A DNA stretch of 64,000 nucleotides, from NCBI GenBank assembly GCA_021413925.1, contig JAIOPL010000016.1, positions 1 through 64,000 on the forward strand. The letters run 5' to 3'. Shown here one piece after another: positions 1-39,745 of the stretch. A program made the translations under genes and the position numbers. A model generated the notes under the pieces. That model was not told the origin of the DNA. It made no database searches and saw only the letters and a list, made by a program, of their open reading frames with translations. Positions within the stretch are counted from its first letter, which is position 1. Every line of letters starts with the position of its first letter. This stretch comes from Verrucomicrobiota bacterium. GTDB taxonomy: Bacteria > Verrucomicrobiota > Verrucomicrobiia > Chthoniobacterales > UBA6821.

Positions 1-324
1 TGCCTGTGGGCTCACTCTTGCAAGCTAGCTTGCAGAGATGAGCACACTGTCAATCACACTCAAGTTCCGACATGTCGAAACTTCCTCCATGCCAGCCAAC
101 AGCAGATTTCTGCCATCTCATCTGTTGCGGTCCTCTTCGGTTTCTCGGCTGTCCACTCGGTGGTTTGAAAATCCCCCGGAAACAATTCCTTCTTCCATCC
201 CTTCGTGTGCTTCGTGTCCTTCGTGTCCTTCGTGGTTAAAAATGCAGCCTTCCGCCTTGATAGTCCTTCTCTCGTCCTCACCCACCGGAAAAAGCAGGGA
301 GTCTGTTTTTTGGAGGTCTCTTGG
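1..324. repeat. Gene-free stretch with decayed intergenic repeats
   Basis: I see no credible gene here. Positions 127-175 carry a 'cctcttcggtttctcggctg' element that recurs near 21098-21131. Positions 196-246 carry one arm of the 'cttcgtgtccttcgtg' repeat family found in at least seven other intergenic gaps of the window. The short open frames across it merely translate these repeats (TKDTKDTK-like peptides). Confidence 0.6.
19..34. promoter_or_regulatory. 16-bp perfect palindrome, operator candidate
   Basis: TGCAAGCTAGCTTGCA is a perfect 16-bp dyad. Its TGCAA...TTGCA arms look like a LacI/GntR-type operator. The gene it would control is off the window edge or unknown, so the role is inference only. 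Confidence 0.3.
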
Positions 325-1555: not shown

Positions 1556-2100
1556 GGTGCTGGTAGCCGGAAGAGTCTGCTCGGGTTCTGCCGAAATGAT
1601 CAAGCCATACCGGGAAGTGAAGGTTGTTGGGCGGAAGGTTGCATTTTTTTAAACCACGAAGGACACAAAGGACACGAAGGACACAAAGGGATGAATCAAG
1701 TAAGATAGGTGGAAAACTCCAGATTCCAGGTCTTTTTGGTCGGCTCCTTCCAAGCCCTCGACTCTCGACTCTCGACTCTCGACTCTCGACTCTCGACTTC
1801 AGATTGTTGATTGCTGGCATCAGGCTTCTCGATTGACGGCACTTGCCTCCCGGCAAGCGGTGCCGCCCCGTTGGGGCTACGACTGTGTCGTCGTCTTCCG
1901 CGCCCCTTCCCAGCGGCTTGGTTCTCGACTCTCGACTCTCGACTTCAGATTATTGATTGCCCAAGGAAGCTCTGATTCATTCCCATGAAGGCTGCGATGA
2001 AATCACGGCTTCCCTAACTCTCCCCCTTCATCTTTCATGATCTTTCATTTTGCCTTTCCCTCCCTCCCCTCACGGATCCTCCTCCGCGCCTGAAAGCGCG
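1556..2100. repeat. Intergenic region: repeat arm and CTCGACT heptamers
   Basis: This is the divergent gap between the SGNH esterase and the MFS transporter. It holds a 'ccacgaaggacacaaagg' arm (about 1643-1693). Six perfect tandem copies of CTCGACT at 1757-1798 and three more at 1924-1944 follow, each set followed by tcagatt(g/a)ttgattg. No open frame of interest is present. Confidence 0.75.
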
Positions 2101-17403: not shown

Positions 17404-17868
17404 TTGGGTAAACACAAAAAATGCATCAGAGGGGAGGATGTACCAAGGATTTTATCAGGATCCAACGGTTGCGAAGCAACGACCGGGCAAGCAAAACAGG
17501 GATAGAGATGCATGGAGGTTTTCACAGGGATAAAGGGGATGAAGGGGATAAAAATGAGTTGAGTCATGGCCACAAGATGCACAAGAGGCACAGGAAAATA
17601 GCACCTATCCGACTGGGCTTCATCTTCTGAACGTGTGATCAATCAAACCTTCTGCCAAAACACTTCACCACGAAATTACCAGGTGATCCCTTCCTTCATC
17701 CCTCTTGTGTTTTTTGTGCACCTTGTGGCTACACCTTTTCTAAAACCGCTCTAGACTGAAGGCTGGAGGCTGCTAGCGAAATACAGGCATGGTACCCAGC
17801 GCATCGCGCTGTGGTGGATGCTGAGTGGGGGATCACGAAAATCCGGGATGAAATCAATGGGCGCCAAC
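17404..17868. repeat. Intergenic region: family A and B repeats
   Basis: Diverged family A arms lie near 17563-17600 (ggccacaagatgcacaagag) and 17695-17735 (ttttttgtgcaccttgtggc). A 'ctctagactgaaggctggag' family B element is at about 17749-17776. Nothing coding is seen. Confidence 0.6.
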
Positions 17869-35895: not shown

Positions 35896-36750
35896 ATGAG
35901 CAGCACCAAATCCCCCGTACCCGAACTTCCCAAATCCGTGGACCTGGGTGAAATGAAAGCCTCCTTCCAGCAGCACGGCTACGCTGTCGCCCGAGGCCTC
36001 TTTTCGGATGCCGAGGTCGAGGAAATCAAATACACCTTCGCCCGCATCGCGGAGAACGGACCTATTCCGGGACATTTTGAACAAGTCTCCAAGGAGGAGG
36101 CCGGCGGCGATCCCCTGAAGGAATTTCCGCGCGTGTTGCATCCCCACAGATTTGACGCCGTATCGCGCAGGAATCTGGTCCATCCGGGTGTTCTCACCTG
36201 CCTGAGGGAACTCATGCAGGACGACGTTCTGGCGGCACAGAGCATGTTCTACTACAAGCCGCCGGGCTCACGCGGCCAAGCGATGCACCAGGACAATTTC
36301 TATCTCCTAGTGGAGCCGCAGACCTGTGTGGCCGCATGGACCGCCATCGACGACGCCGACCCTGAAAATGGCGGCATGTATCTCGTCGCCGATACGGCCG
36401 ATGAGGAGATTTCCTGCCCCGAGATGGCCAATGTCGCTGAATCCTTCACCACACACTTCGTGCCGACGCCGAAAGGCAAAAAGGCGCTTCCCTGCGTCAT
36501 GAAGGCGGGCGACACCCTCTTCTTCAACGGCAGCTCCATCCACGGATCCGGCCCCAACCGTTCCAAGGAGCGTTTCCGCCGTTCCTTTATCTGCCACTAT
36601 GTCCCCAAATCTACACAACGCATCAGCAAGACTTATCTCCCTCTGCTAACGCCAGAGGGCAAGGACATCATGATCGAAGCCAACAAGGGCGGCGGAGCTT
36701 GCGGCAATTCCTGGCAAGATGGCGTGGTATGGGAGGGTGGAACGCATTGA
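35896..36750 (+). CDS. Phytanoyl-CoA dioxygenase (PhyH) family protein
   Basis: A 284-residue Fe(II)/2-oxoglutarate oxygenase. The metal ligands are the HxD of MHQDNFYLLVEP and the His in FNGSSIHGSGPNRS; the Arg of RFRRSFICHYVP would bind 2-oxoglutarate. The ATG at 35896 is chosen over an upstream frame that runs through the promoter. Divergent AraC partner. The protein is only distantly like the PhyH at 13.8 kb, so it is not a recent duplicate. Substrate unknown. Confidence 0.87.
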   Translation: MSSTKSPVPELPKSVDLGEMKASFQQHGYAVARGLFSDAEVEEIKYTFARIAENGPIPGHFEQVSKEEAGGDPLKEFPRVLHPHRFDAVSRRNLVHPGVLTCLRELMQDDVLAAQSMFYYKPPGSRGQAMHQDNFYLLVEPQTCVAAWTAIDDADPENGGMYLVADTADEEISCPEMANVAESFTTHFVPTPKGKKALPCVMKAGDTLFFNGSSIHGSGPNRSKERFRRSFICHYVPKSTQRISKTYLPLLTPEGKDIMIEANKGGGACGNSWQDGVVWEGGTH

Positions 36751-36942
36751 TGTTTTTGGTTCTTCGCTATTTTTAGTAGGCGACTGAGAGAGGAATCCTG
36801 AACAGTCACCACAGAGGCCATGCTCCCCAATGAGGCGTTTAGGCTGAAGGCTGAAGACTGTTAGGTGGGGGGGCGTGAAGAGGCATGTTCTCGTGCATGG
36901 GCTCTGTCTCCCCGGAGCTGGAATGTCATAGGGCTCACACTC
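36751..36942. repeat. Start of a 0.95-kb gene-free region, with family B repeat
   Basis: Carries 'ttaggctgaaggctgaagac'-type element at about 36838-36865, also seen near 17749, 46744, 50524 and (inverted) 50634. No gene is seen. Confidence 0.6.
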
Positions 36943-37219
36943 TCAAGCAGGCTTGAAGAACATCGAGCGGTGGGAAGCGCGATGATACCCAATCAGAGAT
37001 TGGCCCAAAGCAAGGGGGCGAACGCGGGAGCGAGGATAGCAAATGATCCCTCCGGCAGTATTTTCCCGATGCAACGGATGCGAACATCGAGTGCCGGGAG
37101 GCACGATGTAGCCTGCGAAGTAGTCCGAAGGACGAACCAAACACCCGGGAGGGTGTGCGGTAGAGAGCGATGGAATCGCTCCCCGAAGAGTGCCACGGCT
37201 TCCCGGGAGGGAAGTGGCA
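36943..37219. other. Array of about nine short hairpins with purine loops
   Basis: Perfect stems in close succession: TCAAGC/GCTTGA (36943-36956), CATC-ga-GCG/CGC-GATG (36961-36984), CCAATC/GATTGG with AGA loop (36989-37003), CGC/GCG with GGGA loop (37023-37032), CATC-ga-GTGCC/GGCAC-GATG with GGGA loop (37085-37108), GTCC/GGAC with GAA loop (37123-37133), ACACCC/GGGTGT with GGGA loop (37141-37156), GAGCGAT/ATCGCTC with GGA loop (37165-37181) and TGCCA-cgg-CTTCCC/GGGAAG-TGGCA with GGGA loop (37191-37219). Stem sequences differ but the loops are alike and read purine-rich on the plus strand. It may be a structured RNA or a DNA hairpin element; I do not recognise the class. Confidence 0.6.
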
Positions 37220-37449
37220 TCAACCCGTCAGGAGGCGGCGAGGCAATCAACGGCCAGGCAAGCAATTCCTGAGTTCCTGATATTTCTTCCGTGTCTCGCC
37301 TTCAGGGAACCGTTCATTTCGATGACGGAGCCAGATTGATTGTGGAATCCGGCTAGCACACGCCTTCTCTTTGCACGATTCTAAGGGCGGACGGCGATCA
37401 GGGATTCGTCGAACTCGTCCTTTCTCCCTAAGAAGGCGACATCGGCACA

Positions 37450-37683
37450 TTGCGCGGTTTCTCAGCAAAATCAGGCGCGATCAAATGTCCTGTTGCCGAT
37501 GAAAACTTCCATCACGGAACAATCGAAACAAACCTCTACTTCGACAGATTGTTCCTGGATATCCTTGCACACCACAAGGCAGGCAATCCCTCGCGCGCGG
37601 ATGCAAAAATCGCCCTGCAAGGTATCGAGATACTGGAAAAATGGACCATCTCAGCGAAGGAGAGTCGCATTGTAGGCTGGTAG
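37450..37683 (+). pseudogene. Possible C-terminal remnant of a Gfo/Idh/MocA oxidoreductase
   Basis: A 77-codon frame whose last part (NPSRADAKIALQGIEILEKW then SAKESRIV) has the DA-x-x-AL-x-x-IEI-x-E and S-x-x-x-x-R-V rhythm of the C-terminus of Gfo/Idh/MocA dehydrogenases. No N-terminal Rossmann domain precedes it; upstream is the hairpin array. If real, it is the tail of a deleted gene. The evidence is weak. Confidence 0.3.
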
Positions 37684-37701
37684 TCTTCTTGGCGGTTCAA
37701 C

Positions 37702-38763
37702 TCAAGCCACATTCGGCAACTCGGGAACGAAGACATAGTCCGGGTTATCGCGTTGTTTTTTGAGAACGGGAATGATCTCACGCCAGGTGGCCCAGAGCCC
37801 GTGCGGAGCGGGTGGCAAGTCGTGCGCGATCGCTTTGCGAAGCGCCGGCAGGTTGTAGAATGGCACCGCCGGGAACATGTGGTGCTCCACATGATACTGC
37901 ATGTTCCAATAGAGGAACCCAATGAAAGGACTGCAGGTGAAGGTGCGGCAGCAGAGTCTGAAATCCGGGGAGTCGGGCACGAGACCGATGTGCTGGGGCG
38001 TTCCGCAGAGCGTCACCAACCAGCCACAATAGAAAACAGGCAGGTTGACCAAGAGAATTAGGATCCACTGCCCGGTGGCGATGAACGCCGCAGCCAAAGC
38101 CAGATGGCCGAACAAAACAACAGAGGCCCATTTGCGGTGGCGGCGGCGAAGTTCCTCGTTCTCCTCAGGAAGGACTTTCTGCATCCACTCCTCACCGCCG
38201 TCGAAGAGGCCCTCACCATTGAGGTTGCCGGTTGCGTATTTGAACCATTTTTTTAACGCCCCCCAAACTCCGACCGGATTTGGGAAGGGCACCAGTTGCC
38301 AGAACCAGAACTTCACGGCATCCCAGTCCATTTTTTGCGGAAGGATCACCTCACCATCATGGTCGTGATGCACGGTGACCTGATGGTGCTTCACATGGCT
38401 CACGCGGAAGGTGACCGGGTCGCTCCATGTCAGGAACGAGAACACATCCATGAAAAGATCATTCAGCCACTGCCTACGGAATGGCGTCTTGTGAACCAAC
38501 TCGTGCACGGCCACGAGACCCATGAACCCGGCAAAGGTGCCGTGGAGGAAGACAAACAATACAAGGAGCGGAACCATCCATGCCCAATTTGCCTGCGTGA
38601 TGCTTCCACAAGCGACATAGGCCGCCGTGCCTGTGCAGGCGTAGAGACCCAGATGGAGGAGCGCTTGACGGAGTGCTTTTCCGTCATGGCGTTTCATCAG
38701 CTCGCTCATCACGCCTTTGTCCACTTTCGTGCGATACCAGTTGATTTTGATTTGTTCGTTCAT
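37702..38763 (-). CDS. Fatty-acid desaturase-like membrane diiron enzyme
   Basis: A 353-residue membrane protein with the three histidine boxes of the desaturase/hydroxylase superfamily: HELVH (box 1), HVKHH (box 2) and YHVEHH (box 3). Hydrophobic segments flank them (LVLFVFLHGTFAGFMGLVAV; ILILLVNLPVFYCGWLVTL). It is likely an inner-membrane oxygenase acting on fatty acyl chains or another lipid; some alkane and carotenoid oxygenases share these boxes. The ATG at 38763 is chosen over an upstream codon at 38778. Divergent AraC gene 104 nt away. Confidence 0.82.
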   Translation of the reverse strand: MNEQIKINWYRTKVDKGVMSELMKRHDGKALRQALLHLGLYACTGTAAYVACGSITQANWAWMVPLLVLFVFLHGTFAGFMGLVAVHELVHKTPFRRQWLNDLFMDVFSFLTWSDPVTFRVSHVKHHQVTVHHDHDGEVILPQKMDWDAVKFWFWQLVPFPNPVGVWGALKKWFKYATGNLNGEGLFDGGEEWMQKVLPEENEELRRRHRKWASVVLFGHLALAAAFIATGQWILILLVNLPVFYCGWLVTLCGTPQHIGLVPDSPDFRLCCRTFTCSPFIGFLYWNMQYHVEHHMFPAVPFYNLPALRKAIAHDLPPAPHGLWATWREIIPVLKKQRDNPDYVFVPELPNVA

Positions 38764-38867
38764 GGCAGATCGAAACAAAACATTTGGGCGGCAAAGAGTC
38801 TATATCCCCACTGACTTATTTCATATCTCTATTGCCTATTTTTAAAAATGGAGGCACCTTGAGTCGC

Positions 38868-39722
38868 ATGGCACCTCGTTCTTCGAAGCCAGTTAGCGCG
38901 GTTGCAAAAACCGAAGACCTCTACCGAGCGGAGTCGCGCGGGAGCGATCTCCACATGTTTGGACGGGCTCTCTACCTGCCTGGTGGATGGCACGGCCCGC
39001 GAAGTCAGAATGTGTTTTTTCTCATCACGATTTTGGAAGGCAGTGTCGAGATCAACTACAATAGCCGCCGGATTCAGCTTGGATCTGGCGAAGGAGTCAT
39101 CCTGCCTCCCCGTGGAATGGAGTTCTTCCGTTTTGATCCGGATGTTAAAAGCGTCCACCACTGGTGCCAGATTGCGCCGAGCCTCACAAACAGGCACGAA
39201 CGCGAACTCATCGGGTTGGCTAGTCACCCCTCGCCCGTTCCGGCCTCCGTCAACATCCTTATCGAGGAAGGGCTCTCCATCCCAGTTAATCCAGGCCCGC
39301 ACTTGAACCTCGCGATGCAGATCCTTGCAAAAGCCTGTCTGCTTCGCTTTGCGGCCCAGGCCTCCGAAAACATTTCAACAAAGCAACCCCGCCACCAGGC
39401 CGTGGAGCGGGCGCTCGAAGCGGTCTCCATGAACCCCGCGAGATTCCGCAGCGCCGAGGACCTCGCCCACCACTGCGGGATTTCCTACTCTCGCCTTCGA
39501 AAACTTTTTCAGGACGATCAAGGCGAGACCCCCACGGCCATGATCTGGCGCTTAAAGGCCGATCAAGCGATTCAACTGATCCGCGCCACCGGCCTAACCT
39601 TGGCCGAAGTCGCGGAACAGTGCGGCTTCTCCAACGCTTTCCACCTCTCCAGATGCGTCAAAGATCGCACAGGAATCCCCCCCCGCGAACTCCGGAAAAC
39701 CGAACAGGCAACTGGACGATGA
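38868..39722 (+). CDS. AraC-family transcriptional regulator
   Basis: A 284-residue regulator (from the ATG at 38868; an in-frame TTG at 38859 is also possible, since the GGAGG at 38850-38854 lies 4 nt before it and 13 nt before the ATG). The sensor half includes VFFLITILEGSVEINYNSRR; the HTH half includes AHHCGISYSRLRKLFQDDQG and AEQCGFSNAFHLSRCVKDRTG followed by PPREL. It is divergent from the desaturase gene, which it probably controls. Confidence 0.85.
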   Translation: MAPRSSKPVSAVAKTEDLYRAESRGSDLHMFGRALYLPGGWHGPRSQNVFFLITILEGSVEINYNSRRIQLGSGEGVILPPRGMEFFRFDPDVKSVHHWCQIAPSLTNRHERELIGLASHPSPVPASVNILIEEGLSIPVNPGPHLNLAMQILAKACLLRFAAQASENISTKQPRHQAVERALEAVSMNPARFRSAEDLAHHCGISYSRLRKLFQDDQGETPTAMIWRLKADQAIQLIRATGLTLAEVAEQCGFSNAFHLSRCVKDRTGIPPRELRKTEQATGR

Positions 39723-39745
39723 TTGCCGAACGCGGTGTTCCTCTG

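Follow-up and report, generated by a model that had tools for sequence, protein, structure and literature searches.

The dense hairpin array at positions 36943-37219 of the window (the whole 64,000-nucleotide stretch of DNA analysed here) consists of miniature mobile elements nested within one another and is neither a single RNA nor a random relic. We give the complete explanation, non-autonomous miniature mobile elements stacked one inside the next, a probability of about 80%, and the identity of the units as miniature mobile elements, taken by itself, is very likely indeed. The initial annotation had left a choice between a structured RNA, a mobile-element or recombination relic and a protein-binding hairpin array. 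Dispersed copies, empty and filled insertion sites, nesting and a relocated block single out the mobile element; a standalone structured RNA may be a further role but does not explain the insertions. The array does lie where it was first placed, but the real unit is larger, at about 36759-37285. Six non-overlapping perfect stems of at least 5 bp, 35 bp in total, occupy 36943-37219, compared with 1.1 +/- 0.93 in dinucleotide shuffles, none of which reached six (0/500). The density of stems first reported is thus real; the nine perfect stems are six at this length, and a count close to nine is approached only with 3-4 bp and interrupted stems (GTCC-GAA-GGAC, CGC-GGGA-GCG, CATC-GA-GCG..CGATG). 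Likewise, the excess of purine loops is genuine, with GGGA or GGA loops in four of the six stems (shuffle mean 0.016, 0/500). The 35 stem bp are unmatched by any other 277-nt stretch (50-nt steps), by a narrow margin over the runner-up with 32. The two compound CATC-GA-stem-GATG forms seen 124 nt apart (36961-36984 and 37085-37108; direct repeat 36958/37082) are the first hairpins of two elements, B1 and B2, and the third hairpin with a 5'-side bulge is the last hairpin of another, A.

What kind of object do these hairpins make up? When the array region is folded as one RNA it does modestly better than shuffles (z = -1.8 on the plus strand and -2.3 on the minus strand), so several independent hairpin units fit better than one large fold. 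A single large structured RNA was rejected on this whole-region z of about -2 and because the element boundaries cut across the fold. No known element was matched: a search of Rfam 15 gave no hit in the window at the gathering threshold, or at E<=5 in 36750-37700. The statement that the array is not a simple tandem repeat was right, the units being both different and nested, and tandem duplication as its origin was rejected on those grounds; an integron attC array was rejected by eye, since the ends are not inverted repeats. The order of nesting is A within B2, B2 within a hairpin element, G (37071-37277), and B1 within a repeat, C (Table 1). Repeat C is a second structured dispersed repeat of about 120 nt, truncated in the array, with a closing stem GGCATGG/CCATGCC and several inner hairpins (window 8-36, L016, L017 and L018). 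The left ends of the large composites (window 36759-36780, L194, L195, L212 and L017) have the start GG(T/C)TCTTCGCTA(T/G)T in common, possibly one end of an enclosing element.

Table 1. Components of the composite block and related features of the window. A slash within a sequence marks a junction.
Feature	Position	Strand	Matches and recurrence
Whole composite block, 527 bp	36759..37285	+	Recurs intact at G006:C63:10375-10900, 94.3% identity
Left hairpin of block, GGCGACT..AGTCACC, belonging to another dispersed repeat	36779..36810	+	L017 and L194 have a similar left end, L195 and L212 a related TTCTTCGCTATT start
Truncated dispersed repeat C (GGGCTC..TCAAGC-GCTTGA), host of B1; stops at GAA just 5' of B1	36882..36960	+	Blastn copies in own genome at C2:215533 and C12:10282
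Element B1, four hairpins, left flank GAA, right end GCAA	36961..37042	+	R2 match 36956-37044, 58.1 bits
Left arm of hairpin element G, to its GAA loop, the B2 insertion point	37071..37084	+	B-in-G junction also in L212, L214 and L232; G without B at window 17463-17494 and L016
B2 left part, hairpins 1-3	37085..37136	+	R2 match 37080-37165, 74.1 bits
Element A, 87 nt, in B2 after GACGAA, end GCATCAA	37137..37223	+	R1 match 37133-37224, 99.9 bits, E 8.6e-25; missing from otherwise matching B2-in-G composites L212, L214 and L232
B2 right part, CCGTC-AGGA-GGCGG (last hairpin) with the end GAGGCAA	37224..37246	+	95-98% to right end of uninterrupted B in L212 and L214
Right arm of G, GGGCAAGCAA-type end	37247..37277	+	Common to L212, L214 and L232; dispersed copies in own genome
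3' remnant of Gfo/Idh/MocA-type oxidoreductase gene (named by eye), cut off on array side	37305..37683	+	Window 37305-39730 aligns to L029 at 90%; gene longer and complete in L029
Second A element of window, 89 nt, within GTCGAGA-type tandem array	1833..1921	-	R1 match 1832-1925 minus, 96 bits; (CTCGACT)6 array at 1757-1798
G-like hairpin without B (empty site for B insertion)	17463..17494	+	CAACGGTTGCGAA/GCAACGACCGGGCAAGCAA

A and B are built on one plan, four hairpins on one strand in a unit of 75-92 nt. The first hairpin has a 2-3 nt bulge on its 5' side and a GGGA loop and is followed by a G(T/A)AG linker, which is GTAG in 30 of 74 A and 25 of 61 B copies; the second and third are free in sequence, the fourth again has a GGGA loop, and the unit ends in TCAA or GCAA. 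GGGA is the commonest loop of hairpins 1 and 4 in both elements. The consensus of A reads GAACCAAG-stem-GGGA-stem-GCGGTAGA-stem-..-CCC..GGG-last hairpin-GTCAA, with stems that differ between copies and keep their complementarity, and B runs from the CATC-GA-stem-GATG hairpin to GGCAA. Many dispersed partial copies of the array were found by blastn in the window's own genome (2.4 Mb, 32 contigs), and searches with covariance models of A (R1, 92 positions) and B (R2) established that recurrence in relatives is genus-wide. In the own genome R1 gave 52 matches at E<=1, of which 41 scored above 50 bits, and it found 3-74 copies of A in each of 14 of the 15 other genus genomes; A was not found in six sister-genus genomes, and a search of 286 genomes of the class gave only weak matches outside the genus. 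B is present in all 16 genus genomes (1-92 copies, 26 in the own genome; R2). Elsewhere in the order it occurs in a single genome of the sister genus and in 11 from another family, at up to 59 bits; the matches in that family and elsewhere show the same four-hairpin plan. Viral contigs searched with a strict A pattern yielded no copy. Most copies are intergenic, in either orientation and without a fixed neighbour gene, and an ORF of at least 150 aa spans at most three of 30 own-genome copies. In L128, L131, L133, L151 and L023, A copies that end in TTCAA or AACAAA are embedded in longer GC-rich sequence, with AGCYGTAG.. hairpins behind it. Intergenic arrays with units of 7-9 nt (CTCGACT, CCTGAAA, GGGTTGAA and GGCTGTTAG) occur at the window array listed in Table 1 and at many own-genome loci, and often contain A.

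The elements are discrete insertions, mostly after NAA (for A mostly NGAA), with no long target duplication and, at most readable sites, no clear target loss, although the AA on both sides of the element makes a 2-nt duplication and a kept target look alike. Of 74 distinct A copies, 62 have NGAA as their left flank and 60 finish in TCAA on the right. In the window and L194 A is carried in B2, whereas three other loci hold the same B-in-G composite without it (Table 1); the junction is GGACGA/GGCCGTCAGGAGG when empty and GGACGA/ACC..ATCAA/CCCGTCAGGAGG when filled. A second pair, L206 with A and L203 without, lies within one genome. Roughly one target base is altered or missing, similarly in both pairs, so they may trace to one insertion that later spread as part of a composite. 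At the empty sites for B, G runs uninterrupted through its GAA loop. In L237, 80 nt of B interrupt a repeat of the 3' end of tRNA-Gly (GGGTAGAGGGAA/80 nt/TCGAACC), and the intact tRNA lies about 60 nt beyond. A lies inside perfect short tandem units in L121 (GGGTTGAA/A/GGGTTGAA), in L208 (ATTATGAA/A/TTATGAA) and also in L007, and the GGGA loops of other copies are occupied by B and by a further element, E (L203, L205, L198 and L202). An IS91 target was rejected, the sites before insertion reading TGAATT and not GAAC. In L119, L166 and L237 a stretch of 150-270 nt with B (and A) lies between direct repeats of the tRNA-Gly 3' end, and L166 is without an intact tRNA. A further element family, AAAAGGCGCGTGGGAACGCGGC.., also breaks up an A copy in L205.

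An insertion into coding sequence was found in another family. In two genomes of family f7 (G339 and G348; L243 and L244) an 81-nt B-like element keeps the frame of the 23S_rRNA_IVP (four-helix bundle) gene that it interrupts, separating Y from WIEL. The matches to Pfam and to PDB 2rld stop at the insert, and an uninterrupted homologue in L205 reads EYWLEL there; the 27 added residues would be translated unless removed. The element is identical at 81/81 positions in the two species, in a locus that is 81% identical.

The composite block as a whole occurs in more than one setting. In another species (G006) it sits between different genes, and the genes neighbouring it in the window have orthologues of about 81% identity elsewhere in the G006 genome. 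In a near relative (L029) the genes beside the desaturase are intact and there is no array, whereas in the window one such gene is the 3' remnant that starts at 37305, so the block came in or was rearranged after that split, with partial gene loss. The finished block would have moved as a unit between lineages. The desaturase near the array has its nearest relatives in Verrucomicrobia/Spartobacteria MAGs (94%, 87% and 70%). A truncated A-like copy lies in L195 (G006:C64), downstream of the orthologue of the phytanoyl dioxygenase gene; in the window, that gene lies ahead of the array.

Covariation in the stems is strong. In an alignment of 74 distinct A copies that was fitted to the structure, and so leans towards pairing, 95.4% of cells are standard pairs compared with 72.2% when shuffled, and 387 cells are double changes compared with 99.4 +/- 7.3; sliding the pair partners by 1-3 columns lowers pairing to 37-47%. 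A smaller MAFFT alignment that preceded the model agrees (34 double changes versus 12.2 +/- 2.8). Stems diverge faster than unpaired columns, and between copies with 5-10% divergence in unpaired columns, 29% of pairs are different, most of them on both sides. This stem divergence with compensation exceeds what a recently active master element should leave among its copies and counts against the mobile reading. In the very closest copy pairs the changes are mainly one-sided, so compensation comes after mutation and not in one step, and concerted stem conversion as the sole cause of covariation was rejected on this basis. The same one-sided changes bear on the idea of a recombination or replication relic, in which hairpins would be made in place by template switching and slippage and passed on by gene conversion. 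Such a process would fit stems that change yet stay complementary, and the many copies in short tandem arrays, but exact recurrent ends (NGAA/TCAA), precise empty sites and the insertions into tRNA-Gly and the IVP gene all disfavour it, and we regard it as extremely improbable.

The pairs of A comprise 1274 GC, 510 AU and 42 GU of 1826 paired cells, with 12 A-C/C-A mismatches. The excess of G-U over A-C suggests that the strand on which A is read is the folding strand. Forty-two G-U in 1826 paired cells are few for a helix selected as RNA, and the low share fits recognition at the DNA level at least as well as RNA. The same counts can be read in favour of a high-copy structured RNA family (sRNA or cis-acting) in which selection acts on RNA structure, duplication does most of the spreading and mobility is incidental: covariation is strong and G-U is tolerated over A-C. 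An element without a difference between two species at an 81% locus, and a 527-bp block at 94% beside neighbour genes at 81%, would also suit such a family. We nevertheless consider it unlikely, given the small G-U share, the lack of an Rfam match, the two orientations without a fixed neighbour, the copies placed in microsatellite-like arrays and in each other, and the one copy that breaks a protein gene in frame. The case is a warning that a dense array of hairpins between genes can show covariation without being a functional RNA.

How might the miniature mobile elements move? Their end hairpins, TCAA right end, short left target and absence of a long duplication resemble IS608, and HUH-type single-strand transposition in trans is the route we would tentatively take as most likely, at somewhat less than even odds. 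An enzyme supplied in trans would recognise the folded strand by its shape and by short single-stranded motifs, cut after NGAA in a single-stranded target and after TCAA or GCAA at the 3' end of the element, and join the two in an IS200/IS605-like manner. Resident copies would offer favourable single-stranded targets in their loops, and this would account for the Russian-doll nesting; within the array, A would have entered B2, B2 would have entered G and B1 would have entered repeat C. The HUH geometry that is observed consists of hairpins at both ends and clean insertion sites, but AA at both ends is compatible with a 2-nt duplication. In IS608 the right-end cleavage motif (CR) is TCAA, and TTAC is kept in the left flank (PMC5934647). 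A and B have in common with IS200/IS605 elements of this type the subterminal hairpins, a short left-flank target that is apparently kept, the TCAA right end and the lack of a long target duplication (PMC5934647). Unlike them, A and B are without tnpB and mostly without a Y1 gene (in draft genomes), hold four hairpins in less than 92 nt and have the target NGAA instead of TTAC, and guide pairing is only putative here.

Candidate enzymes are sparse in the 16 genus genomes. These are drafts, frequently broken at the repeats in question, and may therefore hide a mobiliser. Y1 transposase genes were found in two of the 16, G006 and the own genome, the latter with a partial IS200-like match (profile positions 5-70). 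G006 has two REP-type (RAYT-like) Y1 genes flanked by their own inverted repeats, and was rejected as the source of an obvious mobiliser for that reason; the 3-kb Y1 loci contain neither A nor B copies, for A at the level of the R1 model. TnpB was found in none of the 16 drafts, and neither was a Y2 (IS91-type) transposase, in a search for which the control set was equally silent. In L169 (G006:C33) a REP-type Y1 gene with GGGGTCAGTGT/ACACTGACCCC ends adjoins a middle-less A fragment, GCTGAACCAAGCCGCT/GTCAA.

Could A and B then be ordinary REP or BIME sequences of the GTAG class, moved by a RAYT? The verrucomicrobium Opitutus terrae is known to carry GTAG REPs (PMC3733652), and G006, with its two RAYT-like genes, is the genome richest in copies. 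Like REPs, BIMEs and REPINs (with RAYT; GTAG and CGTC classes), A and B are short, hairpin-forming, mostly intergenic, high in copy number and often grouped, with complementary stem changes (PMC3733652) and a GTAG-like tetranucleotide near a hairpin, G-T/A-A-G before hairpin 2. However, the unit is a defined four-hairpin element with two conserved GGGA loops and fixed ends, not a single palindrome of 20-40 bp; it inserts in the loops of other copies; the GTAG tetranucleotide is not conserved, at the frequencies given above; no RAYT was found in most carriers (drafts), nor any Y1 gene in 14 of the 16 genomes, and the RAYT genes have inverted repeats of their own. An origin as ordinary REPs is improbable on this evidence.

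RNA-mediated spread, in which a folded RNA is reverse-spliced or reverse-transcribed into DNA, would match the one-strand structure, the insertion into loops and the lack of a long target duplication. A reverse transcriptase (PF00078, RVT_1) was found in only one of the 16 genus genomes, and not in G006 or G009, which have the most A copies as first listed; no A-tail and no 5' truncation series were noticed, and this route is very unlikely. A group II intron or retroelement relic was rejected on the same single RVT_1 genome and the absence of an Rfam intron match. Two reverse-transcriptase ORFs (L209 and L210 in G001; 472 aa) are the sole ones seen in the 16 genomes. A separate possibility, rather doubtful but worth stating, is a new class of miniature element in which the four-hairpin fold is kept while the stems turn over; a shape-reading enzyme of host, phage or plasmid, or an RNA route, would act on it, resident loops would be the landing sites, and nested blocks would then move whole.

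Among other known systems, the Rickettsia palindromic elements (RPEs) are reminiscent of the B-like copy in the IVP gene, being small, palindromic and inserted in frame in protein genes (PMC10969869). RPEs are about 150 bp long and unrelated by description, whereas A and B are mostly intergenic and many are nested. The repetitive and double-hairpin elements of sponge and fungal mitochondria are also hairpins dispersed in spacers and possibly mobile (PMC2800124). The sponge elements have conserved stems and variable loops; A and B are the opposite, with conserved loops and stems that vary with compensation. A classical DDE-type MITE was rejected, as the ends ACC../..TCAA are not inverted repeats and a target duplication is no longer than the possible AA. 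REPs, BIMEs, RPEs and MITEs are kinds already known (PMC3733652, PMC10969869), and A and B fall outside REPs in what defines them (GTAG, single hairpin and RAYT) and outside MITEs in the same way (inverted repeats and duplication). The literature searched held nothing specific on hairpin repeats in Verrucomicrobia/Spartobacteria and no description of the A/B family.

Copies number in the tens in many genomes of this freshwater verrucomicrobial genus, and the elements thereby shape the spacers there and, in a single instance from another family, a protein gene. Hundreds of copies with one fold and free stem sequence amount to a natural experiment on what a mobile hairpin needs. The clean pairs of empty and filled sites make the insertion rule, after NGAA, directly testable. 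If the enzyme is found, it would represent a new or strongly divergent system of single-stranded DNA transposition or insertion.
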